A stretch of DNA of 64,000 nucleotides from Defluviimonas sp. SAOS-178_SWC. GTDB lineage: Bacteria; Pseudomonadota; Alphaproteobacteria; Rhodobacterales; Rhodobacteraceae. The translations under genes and the position numbers were made by a program. The stretch lies in contig NZ_CP156081.1 in assembly GCF_039830135.1 (NCBI RefSeq), positions 2,094,001-2,158,000 of the forward strand. Reading direction: 5' to 3'. Below are positions 55,526 through 59,764 of this stretch, piece by piece. The notes below the pieces were generated by a model. It was not told the origin of the DNA and did no database searches. It saw only the letters and a program-made list of their open reading frames with translations. Each line of letters begins with the position of its first letter. Position 1 is the first letter of the stretch.

Positions 55526-55764
55526 CCGTCGCCGATTTCCTCGATCCCACTCACTGGGTGGCTCCGGCCGGTGGTCCACCTTACATCCAATTCAGAAAGC
55601 GGATAGAAGCAACGACAGCGCCTATACATATGATTTCATTCAATACCTTCACATTCCGTACGGTTGAGGAAATGGCAGGGGACCAAAGCATGATGCGCGA
55701 CGTGGTGCGGGAGATCGCCAACAGGCCCCTCCATCTCGGCAAGGTCACGGGAATGGAGCGATGA
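55522..55764 (+). pseudogene. 80-codon relic: GntR-like N-terminus joined to SIS (NagB-II-like) C-terminus
   Basis: An open frame with operon-style overlaps at both ends (GTGA with the kinase, ATGA with nagA). The first 30 residues (GGPPYIQFRKRIEA) resemble the start of a GntR regulator. The last 18 (ANRPLHLGKVTGMER) resemble the C-terminus of SIS-type glucosamine-6-phosphate deaminases (pattern RPxHLxKVT). Between them the DNA is A+T-rich, 42% GC by hand count over 55611-55670. Best read as the scar of a deletion that removed most of two genes; it could still be translated. Confidence 0.55.
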
Positions 55765-56921
55765 CCGCGACGCTCTATCACGGCGCCGATATCTTCGACG
55801 GAGAACGGCTTGGCCCCGGCGCGCTTCTGGTAGAGGACGGGCGTATAGCTGCGGTCCTGCCACCGAACGCGGCGCCGACGGGCGTGACGAACGTGGACCT
55901 CGACGGCGGCCTTCTGATGCCGGGCTTCGTCGACCTGCAACTGAACGGCGGTGGCGGCGTGATGTTCAACGACGCGCCTTGCGTCGAGACCCTGGCGACG
56001 ATGGCGGAGGCACATGCCGGGCTTGGCGCGCTCACGATGCTGCCGACGCTCATCACCGACACGCCGGAGATCTCCGAAGCGGCGGTTGCGGCGGTCGAAG
56101 CCGCCGTCGCCTCGGGCATGCCGGGCATTGCCGGGCTTCATCTCGAAGGCCCGCATCTCAGCCTCGCGCGGAAAGGGGCCCATGATCCGGCGCTGATCCG
56201 GCCGATGGGCGAGGGTGATCTGGCCTTTCTGATGGATGCCGCGAAAAGGCTGCCGCGCCTTCTGGTGACGCTCGCGCCCGAAAGCGTGACGAATGCCCAG
56301 ATCGCGGCGCTGGCAAAGGCGGGCGTGATCGTCTCGCTCGGCCATACCGATGCCGGGTTCGAAACCTGCCGGGCCGCCGTTTCGTCCGGCGCCACGATGG
56401 CCACGCATCTCTTCAACGCGATGAGCCAGTTCGGCAGCCGCGAACCGGGCCTCGTCGGCGCGGTTTTGACCGGCGGCGCGTTTGATGCCGGTCTCATCGC
56501 CGACGGCATCCATGTCCATCCGGCCGCGATACGCGCCGCGCAGGCCGACAAGGAAGGGCCGGGCGAGTTGTTCCTCGTCACCGACGCGATGGCGCCGGCC
56601 GGCACGTCGGTCACATCCTTCACGCTCAACGGCCGCGAGATCCGGCGCGCGGACGGACGGCTGACGCTTGCGGACGGAACGCTCGCCGGCGCCGATCTCG
56701 ACATGGCGCGCGCGCTTCGGGTTCTGCGCGACGATGTCGGCATCGCGCTCGACCGCGCGCTCGGCATGGCCACCCGCATTCCCGCGCGTGCCGCGCGGCT
56801 GTCCGACCGATGTGGGGCGCTTTTGCCGGGGCGGAGTGCCGATTTCCTTCATCTCTCGCAAGAGTTTCACCTGGTGCGGATCTGGCGGCGGGGGCGTGAT
56901 GTGCCCCTGTCTCCGGCATGA
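55761..56921 (+). CDS. nagA: N-acetylglucosamine-6-phosphate deacetylase
   Basis: 386 residues. Amidohydrolase fold: MPGFVDLQLNGGGGVMFND, GLHLEGPHLSLARKGAHDP with the metal-binding Glu, LGHTDAGFETCRAAV and THLFNAMSQFGSREPGLVG, and the catalytic Asp in FLVTDAMAPAG. It removes acetate from GlcNAc-6-P. A deaminase should take the product to fructose-6-P; no intact deaminase gene is nearby. The IS element begins 38 bp after the stop. Confidence 0.95.
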   Translation: MTATLYHGADIFDGERLGPGALLVEDGRIAAVLPPNAAPTGVTNVDLDGGLLMPGFVDLQLNGGGGVMFNDAPCVETLATMAEAHAGLGALTMLPTLITDTPEISEAAVAAVEAAVASGMPGIAGLHLEGPHLSLARKGAHDPALIRPMGEGDLAFLMDAAKRLPRLLVTLAPESVTNAQIAALAKAGVIVSLGHTDAGFETCRAAVSSGATMATHLFNAMSQFGSREPGLVGAVLTGGAFDAGLIADGIHVHPAAIRAAQADKEGPGELFLVTDAMAPAGTSVTSFTLNGREIRRADGRLTLADGTLAGADLDMARALRVLRDDVGIALDRALGMATRIPARAARLSDRCGALLPGRSADFLHLSQEFHLVRIWRRGRDVPLSPA

Positions 56922-56951: not shown

Positions 56952-56959
56952 TATAAAGA
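56952..56959 (+). repeat. 8-bp target-site duplication, left copy (TATAAAGA)
   Basis: TATAAAGA directly abuts the left inverted repeat of the IS and is repeated exactly at 58953-58960. Eight base pairs is the duplication length known for the IS1595 family. Confidence 0.93.
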
Positions 56960-56990
56960 GGGGCGTATCCCCTTGACATACGGTAGTCGA
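56960..56990 (+). repeat. Left terminal inverted repeat of the IS
   Basis: Starts GGGGCGTATCCCCT and matches the reverse complement of 58922-58952 at 24 of 31 positions. A TTGACA at 56973-56978 inside it could serve as the -35 of the transposase promoter. Confidence 0.9.
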
Positions 56991-56998
56991 ATTCCCAT

Positions 56999-57012
56999 CT
57001 GATAGGTATCAG
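56999..57012 (+). promoter_or_regulatory. Palindrome CTGATAGGTATCAG before the transposase gene
   Basis: A 6-bp perfect dyad with a GG centre, 21 bp downstream of the TTGACA hexamer and 14 bp before the transposase ATG. It could be an operator or an mRNA hairpin limiting transposase synthesis. Confidence 0.4.
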
Positions 57013-57026
57013 AGGGACATGCCACC

Positions 57027-57908
57027 ATGAAACAGACCACCGTTCGCCAGTTCTTCGCTCAATTTCCGAACGATGACGCCTGCTTGGAGCATCTGTTTAA
57101 CGTTCGCTTCGGCCAAGGCCACGTCTGCCCGAAGTGTGAGCGAGAGGCGAAATGGTATCGCCTGACCAATGAACAAGCCTATTCCTGCCAGTGGTGCGGC
57201 CATCACATTCACCCGATGGTCGGTTCCATCTTCGAAAAGAGCCGCACCCCGCTGCAACTCTGGTTCTACGCGATCTTCCTGTTCACCACGTCCAGGCATG
57301 GCGTCAGCGGCAAGGAATTGCAGCGTCAGCTTGGCGTCACCTACAAGACCGCATGGCGCATGGCCGCGCTCATTCGTGAGCATATGGCCGCTATCGACGG
57401 CGACGCGCCCATAGGTGGCCATGGCGAGGTTGTCGAGATTGACGAGACGTTCATGGGCGGCAAGACGGAAGGCCATGACTGGCGCGAGCGCAAGACGGTC
57501 GTGATGGGCATGATCGAACGCGACGGCGATGCGATCCTGACCGTTGTTCCCGACCAGACGCGCGGATCGCTAATCCCGCAAATCCACAAGAATGTTTTGC
57601 CCGGCTCAGAAATCCACACGGATGAGCTTCGCGCCTATGACCGTTTCCACGGTTCGCGCACCGAATACACCCACAAGACCGTGAACCATCGGAACGGTGA
57701 GTACGCCCTGCCGGACGGCACCAGCACCAACCAGATCGAAAGCTTCTTCAATCACCTGAAAAAGTCGATTGCTGGTACCCATACCAGTGTGTCGCGCAAG
57801 CACCTTCTGCGCTACGTCAAGGAATTCGAGTACCGCTTCAATCGTCGGATGCGTCCCGAGACGATGCTTTCGGAGTTGCTTTCGCGGTTCCCTGAGTTGG
57901 GCGCTTGA
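57027..57908 (+). CDS. IS1595-family transposase
   Basis: 293 residues, preceded by AGAGGGAC. An N-terminal zinc ribbon (CPKCEREAKWYRL, then CQWCGHHIHP, about 36-62) is typical of IS1595/ISXO2 transposases. The catalytic core shows VEIDETFMGGK (first Asp), EIHTDELRAYDRF (second Asp) and TNQIESFFNHLKKSI with the Asn-Gln-Ile-Glu and lysine motif of this family. Full length with no frameshift. Its last 71 bp overlap a convergent 57-codon gene. Confidence 0.95.
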   Translation: MKQTTVRQFFAQFPNDDACLEHLFNVRFGQGHVCPKCEREAKWYRLTNEQAYSCQWCGHHIHPMVGSIFEKSRTPLQLWFYAIFLFTTSRHGVSGKELQRQLGVTYKTAWRMAALIREHMAAIDGDAPIGGHGEVVEIDETFMGGKTEGHDWRERKTVVMGMIERDGDAILTVVPDQTRGSLIPQIHKNVLPGSEIHTDELRAYDRFHGSRTEYTHKTVNHRNGEYALPDGTSTNQIESFFNHLKKSIAGTHTSVSRKHLLRYVKEFEYRFNRRMRPETMLSELLSRFPELGA

Positions 57909-58011
57909 TCAAGGCGTCCAACTTATCAAGGTCGCCATCAGGATCGGTCTCGTGTGCCTTGATAAACATGTCAATTTTACCCGTCTTGCGGGCTGATTTT
58001 AGGTCACCCAT
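57838..58011 (-). CDS. 57-residue protein, third gene of the IS passenger operon
   Basis: ATG at 58011, two bases below the preceding gene's stop, ending with TGA at 57838-57840. The product begins MGDLKSARKTGKIDMFIKAH, continues with the acidic ETDPDGDLDKLDALIK and ends in a Ser/Asp-rich tail (ASSRDASDD). It is charged and soluble. I recall similar small proteins in other alphaproteobacteria but cannot confirm it here. It overlaps the transposase 3' end antisense by 71 bp, which may affect transposase expression. Function unknown. Confidence 0.6.
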   Translation of the reverse strand: MGDLKSARKTGKIDMFIKAHETDPDGDLDKLDALIKRPTQGTAKATPKASSRDASDD

Positions 58012-58012
58012 A

Positions 58013-58519
58013 TCAACCTATCGCACTTCCCCTGCCGCCACCTTGGCGTCCATTCATAAACTGGAAAACGATGTGAAGTGCGCTCCTAGCAGAGCGGCCA
58101 AGCGGTGCCCAAAACAGCATGAGCATTATGACTTCGATTACAAAAAGCAGGAAGCAAATTGGACTCGTTGCCATCATGCAAATGATTCCATGAACGAACG
58201 TTTGAGCGATCTCCCTGTGCTTAGGGTGCGACATCAGCTTGGGGTGAACTCTTGAACCTTGCCGCAGAACATTGAATACGCCCAGGGGGTATGTGATCAC
58301 CATCAACCACGCGGCCTTCGTGCTGAACATCATTCTTCCAAGACGATCAAGATCGTCCCTAAAGGAGCGCGGAATAGATTGATCTGCCAACAAATCTTCT
58401 ATGTTGTTTGCAACTTGCAGCCGCAGCGGCTGGAATGTACGCGACAAGCGCGCAGCAAGGTAAGCGTACGCGAGCATGACAAGAAGCGCAGCACCAAGAA
58501 TCATTTGATCTGATGTCAT
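58013..58519 (-). CDS. Passenger membrane protein, 168 residues
   Basis: ATG at 58519 overlaps the stop of the upstream passenger gene (ATGA). Predicted helices are near 7-24 (LGAALLVMLAYAYLAARL), 70-86 (AAWLMVITYPLGVFNVL) and 109-138 (TFVHGIICMMATSPICFLLF onward). A soluble loop of about 45 residues follows helix 1. No recognised family. The gene lies wholly inside the IS, between the transposase and the right end. Confidence 0.75.
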   Translation of the reverse strand: MTSDQMILGAALLVMLAYAYLAARLSRTFQPLRLQVANNIEDLLADQSIPRSFRDDLDRLGRMMFSTKAAWLMVITYPLGVFNVLRQGSRVHPKLMSHPKHREIAQTFVHGIICMMATSPICFLLFVIEVIMLMLFWAPLGRSARSALHIVFQFMNGRQGGGRGSAIG

Positions 58520-58869
58520 TTCCGACTCCGCTTGTCTTTCTTAGCAGATGACGCGCCCAAACGCGAGCGCGCAGCTTTCCGCTCCCTTTCAACCTCTTCC
58601 CGCAACTTTTCCGCATGTGGGTAAATGACAACCCAACGTAGAATTGCGGCGATGATAAGGCAGATCACGATAAGTGCCGGATCATCATGTAATACGCGTA
58701 AAACCCAAGTTAATGCTGTTGAAAAAAACGTGATCGTCTCATCGCCGATGACAGTGTCCTTTGCGCCCGGCACGTCAGCGAGGACTCCTGCAATCACACC
58801 TCCAGCCATGAGTAGGGCAAAGAGGCGACTTAACACCCACCAGACGGACAATAGAATGTACTTCATCAA
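58516..58869 (-). CDS. Passenger membrane protein, 117 residues, with basic helical tail
   Basis: Promoter-proximal gene of the passenger operon. Hydrophobic N-terminal helix (YILLSVWWVLSRLFALLMAG), a polar middle segment, a second helix near 65-83 (PALIVICLIIAAILRWVVIY), then a charged tail (KLREEVERERKAARSRLG) that may form a coiled coil on the cytosolic side. No known family. GC is low (37% over 58681-58740), unlike the host genes. Confidence 0.72.
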   Translation of the reverse strand: MMKYILLSVWWVLSRLFALLMAGGVIAGVLADVPGAKDTVIGDETITFFSTALTWVLRVLHDDPALIVICLIIAAILRWVVIYPHAEKLREEVERERKAARSRLGASSAKKDKRSRK

Positions 58870-58921
58870 ATACTGGACCCACAGCAGGTTGTGAGACCGA
58901 TAGATTCAAATCGCCATCAAG

Positions 58922-58952
58922 TCAATTAACGTATGCTGAGGGGATACACCCC
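58922..58952 (-). repeat. Right terminal inverted repeat of the IS
   Basis: On the minus strand it starts GGGGTGTATCCCCT and aligns with the left end at 24 of 31 positions. It ends directly at the right TATAAAGA copy. Confidence 0.9.
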
Positions 58953-58960
58953 TATAAAGA
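58953..58960 (+). repeat. 8-bp target-site duplication, right copy (TATAAAGA)
   Basis: Exact copy of 56952-56959. Removing the IS and one copy restores a continuous A+T-rich stretch about 110 bp upstream of rpe. Confidence 0.93.
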
Positions 58961-59071
58961 CGCGGTGCGATCGGCGCTGCAAGGGCAAATCCGCGCAGAT
59001 CGCCGGTCTTCGCTGGACGCCCCACGCCCTTTGCCGGTAGAGCAATGACACCACCAGTCCGGAGCGCGCGC

Positions 59072-59764
59072 ATGACCTTCAACCGATCCATCAAGATCGC
59101 CCCGTCGATCCTCTCCGCCGATTTCGCAGATTTCGGCCGCGAGATCGCGGCAATCGAAGCCGAAGGCGCCGACTGGGTCCATGTCGACGTCATGGACGGC
59201 CATTTCGTTCCGAACCTCACCTTTGGCCCGCCGCTCTGCAAGGCGATCCGCAAACACATCAAGACGGTCATGGACGTTCACCTGATGATCGCGCCGGTCG
59301 ATCCCTATATCGAAGCCTTCGCTGACGCCGGCGCCGACATCATCACCGCGCATCACGAAGCCGGACCGCACATTCACCGCACACTGCAAGCCATTCGTGC
59401 AACTGGGAAAAAAGCTGGTCTCGCGCTCAATCCCGGCACTCCGGTCGAAGCGGCCGCGCCACTTCTCGACCTCTGCGACCTCATTTGCGTGATGACCGTG
59501 AATCCCGGCTTTGGCGGGCAGAAATTCATTCATTCCCAAGTGGATAAGATACGGTCTTTGCGCAAGATGATCGGCGACCGCCCGATCCATATCGAGATCG
59601 ACGGCGGCATCACGCCCGAGACGGCACCGCTCGTGACCGCCGCCGGCGCCGATGTGCTCGTCGCCGGATCGGCGGTCTTTGCGGGCGGCTCGGTCGCGAA
59701 ACCGGAGGTCTACGGCAAGAACATCCGCGCCATCCGAACCGCCACGGCCAGCGCCCAAACCTGA
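59072..59764 (+). CDS. rpe: Ribulose-phosphate 3-epimerase
   Basis: 230 residues from ATG 59072 with GGAG upstream. TIM-barrel motifs IAPSILSADFADFG, VHVDVMDGHFVPNLTFGP, VMDVHLMI, MTVNPGFGGQKFI and IEIDGGITPETA hold the metal ligands and catalytic Asp residues. It interconverts ribulose-5-P and xylulose-5-P. The IS right end lies about 120 bp upstream, so its native promoter may be displaced. Confidence 0.96.
   Translation: MTFNRSIKIAPSILSADFADFGREIAAIEAEGADWVHVDVMDGHFVPNLTFGPPLCKAIRKHIKTVMDVHLMIAPVDPYIEAFADAGADIITAHHEAGPHIHRTLQAIRATGKKAGLALNPGTPVEAAAPLLDLCDLICVMTVNPGFGGQKFIHSQVDKIRSLRKMIGDRPIHIEIDGGITPETAPLVTAAGADVLVAGSAVFAGGSVAKPEVYGKNIRAIRTATASAQT

Follow-up and report, generated by a model that had tools for sequence, protein, structure and literature searches.

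The IS1595 family of insertion sequences (IS), which is divided into seven groups, was reportedly founded in a 2009 article by Siguier, Gagnevin and Chandler. Its members produce an 8-bp target duplication and encode a transposase with a zinc ribbon, which one source describes as absent only in the IS1016 group (PMC8101967). Insertion sequences with passenger genes are termed tIS; an example is ISPa75 of the IS66 family, which carries fosZ, and the passenger gene follows the transposase gene and lies within the IS ends (PMC12888890). Tn7-like transposons have been described as combining a transposition core with variable cargo, defence genes among it (PMC8649781). Here we analysed a 64,000-nt stretch of the Defluviimonas sp. 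SAOS-178_SWC genome (contig NZ_CP156081.1, positions 2,094,001 to 2,158,000; hereafter the window, whose numbering is used throughout) that contains an IS1595-type element. This element shares with the IS1595 family a DDE_Tnp_IS1595 (ISXO2-like) transposase domain, an N-terminal zinc ribbon, the 8-bp target duplication and inverted repeats, but differs from it in being about 2 kb long with cargo and in having a conserved antisense gene, which we call c57, that overlaps the transposase gene. It shares with tIS the presence of non-transposition genes (c117 and c168) between the repeats, but differs in that 43 of 43 delimited elements with c57 have room for cargo, the cargo varies at a single fixed position, with a core gene standing at the junction. 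Tn7-like transposons are distinguished from these elements by the latter's size of about 2 kb and single transposase. We consider it probable, although well short of certain, that the element is an IS1595 carrier in which a fixed core adjoins an exchangeable cargo bay, c57 is transposition-related and coupled to the cargo, and the cargo is a membrane module maintained by selection.

The element spans positions 56960-58952 (1993 bp). Its inverted repeats begin at 56960 and 58952, with the terminal sequences GGGGCGTATCCCC... on the left and ...GGGGATACACCCC on the right, and match at 24 of 31 positions (19/24 and 12/13). The left repeat was assigned to 56960-56984 on the plus strand (25 nt, with the likeness extending to the 24/31 match) and has a similar end in many relatives; the right repeat was assigned to 58928-58952 on the minus strand. 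The sequence TATAAAGA is found at 56952-56959 and again at 58953-58960, this exact 8/8 match representing the target-site duplication. G+C content is 0.537 in the element compared to 0.667 in its 5-kb flanks. Between the repeats are located a plus-strand gene for a 293-aa transposase (57027-57908) and three minus-strand genes: c57 (57838-58011, 57 aa), c168 (58013-58519, 168 aa, a predicted helical membrane protein) and c117 (58516-58866 or 58869, 116 or 117 aa with an ATG or TTG start, a predicted two-transmembrane protein with a charged C-terminus). c117 overlaps c168 by 4 nt, and c57 overlaps the 3' end of the transposase gene by 71 nt (57838-57908), both stop codons included, a feature on which the earlier sequence-only reading is silent. 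The transposase exceeds the curated cut-offs of PF12762 (1e-36, 126.7 bits compared to a cut-off of 27), of the zinc-ribbon family PF12760 (7.8e-12, 45.4 bits compared to 25.4) and of NF033547 (1.9e-54, 184.8 bits compared to 75). These data confirm that the unit is a complete IS1595-family transposon with an intact DDE transposase, as that sequence-only reading had proposed from the same repeats and duplication. Based on its family membership, the element presumably moves by DDE-mediated transposition.

A transposase scan of the contigs of GTDB species yielded 75 loci, to which were added the window copy (L001) and a plasmid copy (L002) to give 77. By organism name the relatives belong mainly to Rhodobacterales and Sphingomonadales, with others scattered, and their ends and target duplications were located by script. 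In 62 of the 77 loci, whatever the cargo, c57 was found on the strand opposite the transposase gene, at its 3' end (profile search, E<=0.1; L071 and L076 are partial matches and L024 lacks the first 18 positions). Four of the 15 misses reach a contig end (L014, L046, L048 and L072), and eleven have transposases of no more than 49% identity over the matched part. Forty-three elements, that of the window included, combine c57 with a target duplication of 7/8 or 8/8 (8/8 in 41); twelve more c57 loci have duplications below 7/8. The 43 elements are 1564-2863 bp in length and have at least 623 bp from the transposase stop to the right end, a distance of roughly 0.6-1.9 kb of which c57 uses about 100 bp.

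The bay, located between c57 and the right end, was compared among 42 elements, chosen because they match the c57 profile in full and encode an intact transposase. Based on homology in all frames, the bays of the 42 elements fall into 25 groups. Transposases are more than 80% identical in 93 of the 861 pairs, and bay homology was detected in three of these 93 (L025/L027, L033/L034 and L033/L045), or in two when chosen open reading frames (ORFs) were compared, a list that missed the c57-adjacent cargo gene in L025 and L030. At 85% identity or above, one of 40 pairs (L025/L027) exhibited bay homology in all frames, the bays of the other 39 having no DNA homology. For L016 and L057, whose transposases are 97% identical, no cargo homology was detected, and L013 and L022 share a cargo protein at 86% identity with transposases that are 70% identical. 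Across the 39 pairs without bay homology, similarity on the left stops at points from 87 nt inside c57 to 5 nt past its start (median 34 nt inside). Homology at the right end is 25 nt long in the median and 84 nt at most, and in most close pairs the right inverted repeat is the sole homology to the right of c57. Because close pairs lack bay homology between the c57 start and the right end, we interpret the element as a carrier with an exchangeable bay, and by these alignments the bay looks to have been exchanged as a block whose borders are the right end and the 5' portion of c57.

The coding status of c57 was assessed in the same 42 elements. For the part of c57 outside the transposase gene, the proportion of nonsynonymous differences (pN) was lower than that of synonymous differences (pS) in 858 of 861 pairs, with a mean pN of 0.18 and a mean pS of 0.70 for the 222 pairs above 60% identity. 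As judged from these substitutions, c57 is under purifying selection. The overlap with the transposase gene is 71 nt in 24 elements, 74 nt in 10, 80 nt in 5 and of other length in 3, a stretch of 71-80 nt thus being shared in 39 of the 42. Within the overlap, the variability of four-fold sites of the transposase is 0.395 (14 columns), compared to 0.580 elsewhere (158 columns; Mann-Whitney p=4e-4); the value is not so low in any other block of that size. The excess of pS over pN and the lowered four-fold variability in the overlap indicate that c57 is very probably a real gene. Its divergence is correlated with that of the transposase (Mantel r=0.56, 0/1000 permutations).

We also searched for c57 alone in 385 genomes of the class and found it at 16 places in 14 genomes. 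An IS1595 transposase converges on c57 and overlaps it at 13 of the 15 places outside the genome of origin, one of these transposases being only partly covered and one place being identical to L023; the match at L119 is a chance one inside a long ORF. A protein collection contained 1062 sequences that match c57, and no Pfam domain was present in any of the 120 listed among these. Likewise, no Pfam match at E<=0.01 was obtained for 30 c57 proteins and c57 of the window matched no family in NCBIfam, PHROGs or PADLOC, results that bear on whether cargo and c57 could form a toxin-antitoxin module. Nothing credible was found when the profiles of c57 and c168 and the transposase were compared to PDB sequences. 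Because c57 is kept beside the transposase across unrelated cargos and shares part of its coding DNA, it is a part of the mobile core and not cargo. The sequence-only reading had placed all three minus-strand genes in a passenger operon; this holds for c117 and c168 but not for c57, and the passenger operon proper is made up of two genes, c117 and c168, that feed into c57. Exchange of the bay between elements lay beyond what that reading could detect.

The cargo is closely apposed to c57. In 69 of 82 loci, the end of a gene of 80 or more codons lies no more than 60 nt from the c57 start; the two genes overlap in 49, the commonest overlaps being 14, 4 or 17 nt (the count is without L024, L071 and L119 and includes duplicates, L110 being the same as L023 and L092 the same as L028, with L120 and L124 sharing one genome). 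In the flanks, the same spacing test was passed by 221 of 1070 random ATGs and by 148 of 937 starts of 50-70-codon ORFs. The left end, the transposase gene and the antisense c57 at its 3' end make up the fixed core of this subgroup, and a variable cargo operon reads from the right end back into c57. We propose that cargo may be exchanged by recombination through two arms, the transposase/c57 region and the right end. c57 would have a transposition-related function and would depend for its translation on the preceding cargo gene, and transposition or its control would thereby be tied to an expressed, intact cargo. A more specific version, possible but in our estimation doubtful, is that this subgroup checks its load: c57 would be made only after the preceding cargo gene has been fully translated, and the c57/transposase region would be the joint at which defence-type cargo is swapped. 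If so, only elements with intact cargo would transpose or be properly controlled, and the elements would be very small vehicles for trading defence-type modules.

Two alternatives to a transposition-related c57 were considered. The conserved feature may instead be an antisense RNA, such that the cargo transcript enters the 3' end of the transposase gene and lowers its expression, with the c57 frame serving only to keep ribosomes on. The convergent, overlapping layout found wherever both c57 and a transposase end are present is consistent with this, but the amino acids of c57 are conserved outside of the overlap, where pN is well below pS; because a role of the RNA alone needs no amino-acid conservation of c57, we consider it unlikely. 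The other alternative is that c57 is part of the cargo and acts as an immunity protein, antitoxin or other generic partner of whichever membrane or effector gene comes before it, with no role in transposition. c57 indeed closes the cargo operon, in most cases with a start that overlaps the stop of the cargo or directly adjoins it, and its first codons tend to move with the cargo, as evidenced by the left homology that ends a median of 34 nt inside. Its presence beside many unrelated cargos (25 bay groups in 42 elements), a divergence that tracks that of the transposase, and the 71-80 nt shared with it in 39 of 42 elements make this alternative improbable.

Some indication of what the bays contain came from the cargos of relatives. 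The cargo list was compiled without L011, L024, L060, L064, L069 and L075, which have no credible ends. Eleven homologous cargo pairs in other elements have pN/pS values of 0.11-0.66; the three closest pairs (0.11-0.16) point to purifying selection, and the distant pairs have saturated pS. We ran 72 cargo proteins, a subset of the list, through PADLOC along with 72 flanking proteins as controls, these being only roughly length-matched with none under 150 aa. Strong matches were obtained for 7 of the 72 cargo proteins: four to PDC-S42, two to capP/RmrA-type M78 peptidases (with an E-value recorded for one of the two) and one to PDC-S45. Among the flanking proteins there was one strong match (PDC-M34A, two models), with nine other rows at 2.3e-5 to 0.0055. 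A reading in which the cargo is defence throughout was rejected, the PADLOC excess over the flanks being small and falling largely within three groups.

The L033 cargo protein that matches PDC-S42 has relatives in 37 plasmid records and in 8 phage records, which include duplicates. In Lactobacillus phage A2 the relative (ORF19) is located between the lysin and integrase genes, and in Listeria phage vB_LmoS_188 (ORF27) it is flanked by a gene with a superinfection-immunity annotation and by the integrase gene. The accessory genes beside phage integrases are thus related to a cargo family of these elements, but it is the cargo of L033 and not that of the window that is concerned. Taken with the PADLOC matches, these data suggest that only some of the cargos have accessory or defence-type roles. 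Separately, the L028 element is embedded in sequence that matches L092, from a contig classed as viral, without a difference over 10885 bp, and one such transposon is therefore found in DNA classed as (pro)phage.

For the cargo of the window, a collection of 5.8 billion proteins contained three relatives of c168 (53-73% identity, length kept) and one of c117 (44% identity), all from short metagenome contigs. c168 has no match at the cut-offs of Pfam or NCBIfam and none in PHROGs or PADLOC, and its structural model (5 sequences, mean pLDDT 73.6) has no Foldseek match at E<=0.001 in PDB or BFVD. c117 exhibited sub-threshold matches only, such as to SLATT_4 (0.094) and a PADLOC 2TM effector (0.018). 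Consistent with the expectation that these passengers have no described function, none was found for c117 or c168, and homology of the window cargo to a known defence protein was not detected in these searches. Kinship to other membrane cargos was also tried and rejected, c168 compared to two multi-helix groups and c117 compared to a one-helix group giving probabilities of at most 1.2%. In viral contigs, plasmids, 385 genomes of the class and 295 of the family, c168 was found in its own genome and as one remote match in the genome G209 (25% identity, E=1.9e-4), c117 not having been searched there. The G209 match is beside an IS1595 transposase remnant; at this locus (L105, 2940-3497 and 3572-3841) the remote c168 relative is convergent to the remnant, and no c57 match better than E 2.8 was present.

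The cargo could be unselected DNA that hitchhikes between two IS ends and is decaying. The few relatives detected for the window genes (three and one) and the rapid shifts in cargo identity are in keeping with this possibility. Both window genes are nevertheless intact and retain their 4-nt overlap, the c168 relatives keep 53-73% identity along with their length, and the cargo pairs elsewhere have pN/pS values of 0.11-0.66, of which the higher ones come with saturated pS; we consider decay very improbable. We instead favour the reading that c117-c168 would be a two-gene membrane module kept for the benefit of the host or the element. Defence or superinfection exclusion would be the likeliest class of function, and a membrane-located defence or exclusion module is our best guess for the pair, a tentative one that we would expect to fail more readily than to hold.

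A number of observations weigh against the model of a fixed core with a cargo-coupled c57 and a selected bay. With respect to c57, its frame is open in 42 of 42 elements as a consequence of selecting those with a full c57 match; the remaining two same-strand frames are open in 7 and 1, and the opposite-strand frames of the stretch in 19, 33 and 3 of the 42. The pairs among these 42 related elements are not independent. At L123 c57 occurs with no detectable transposase. L063 and L068 are IS1595-type elements with 8/8 duplications that have further ORFs as cargo and no detectable c57, indicating that cargo carriage is wider than c57. A structural model of c57, of low confidence (66 sequences, pLDDT 76.1, pTM 0.37), had no PDB structure match at E<=10, and both the translation of c57 and its role in transposition are predictions from sequence. 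With respect to the junction, the overlap of cargo and c57 may be partly passive: stop codons in two frames are supplied by the first codons of c57, and the junction moves together with the cargo. The 4-, 14- and 17-nt overlaps are therefore not independent proof of coupling. With respect to the cargo, fast divergence could hide homology between some of the bays, and a defence role of the cargo in general is weakly indicated by the PADLOC matches. Six cargo proteins match the NCBIfam family LAPAL, and because this family is named as a putative phage structural protein a firm defence label is unsafe.

The history of the insertion was examined by searching the flanks and the element in 41 genomes (the genome of origin and 40 relatives), of which 36 matched. 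In its own genome the element is present once, with one PF12762 gene in total, and the end pattern (<=2 mismatches) occurs nowhere except at the two ends of the element. The element sits between two host genes that are outside of it, a nagA-like gene (N-acetylglucosamine-6-phosphate deacetylase; 55761-56921, plus strand, TIGR00221 1.6e-88, above cut-off) and rpe (ribulose-phosphate 3-epimerase; 59045-59764, plus strand, TIGR01163 4.7e-83, above cut-off). Besides the genome of origin, the best matches were G012 and G019, two genomes of the same genus with both flanks on one contig and with 20 and 17 nt, respectively, between the two matched flank parts. When these were aligned to the window flanks joined at one copy of the target-site duplication, an alignment that covered G012 and G019 only among the relatives, both were colinear without the 1993 bp, and a TATA-like sequence is present at the empty site. 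Because the site is empty in both, the element was inserted after the divergence from G012 and G019. The sequence-only reading had called for a search for empty sites in sister strains and for other copies with the same ends, and both were found; the small genes in the absence of the transposase and repeats, an outcome it took as damaging, were not encountered, the empty sites lacking these genes as well. That the element is a plain IS1595 insertion sequence beside host genes, with spurious extra ORFs, agrees with the single transposase gene ascribed to most IS1595 elements in the literature cited above (PMC8101967) but is already contradicted by the empty site, from which the genes inside the repeats and duplication are absent, as well as by the same layout in relatives, and we give it almost no credence.

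The IS1595 family and insertion sequences with passengers are known. No description of c57, of the exchangeable bay or of this subgroup was found in the literature searched, although a mention in the 2009 founding article is possible. Insertion sequences with passengers would hereby be extended to an apparent rule for a subgroup, that of a conserved two-gene core plus a bay, with bay content that differs even between elements whose transposases are 97% identical. The elements offer a simple, testable model of how very small transposons may gain and trade genes, a route to unknown gene modules by reading the DNA between c57 and the right end, and a conserved case of two bacterial genes that share DNA on opposite strands.

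Additional features were observed near gene starts. A promoter scan gave 3 sites as compared to 1.4 +/- 0.9 in shuffled sequences and was not used as evidence. In nine relatives (L002, L003, L004, L007, L010, L015, L017, L019 and L044) a motif like CGTGAGATGA precedes the next ATG by exactly 7 nt; its position coincides with the beginning of the first cargo gene or is close to it, and a GACTC-like sequence is often found upstream. The cargos of these nine are mostly unrelated by BLAST, and the window element is without the motif. The motif could serve as a promoter or operator, or be a leader frame of two codons (GTG AGA TGA). Finally, the left repeat of several relatives, such as L002, L027 and L030, contains TTGACA or TTTACA and a TATAAT-like box a few nucleotides before the transposase ATG, an arrangement that suggests a leaderless transposase mRNA driven from the inverted repeat.

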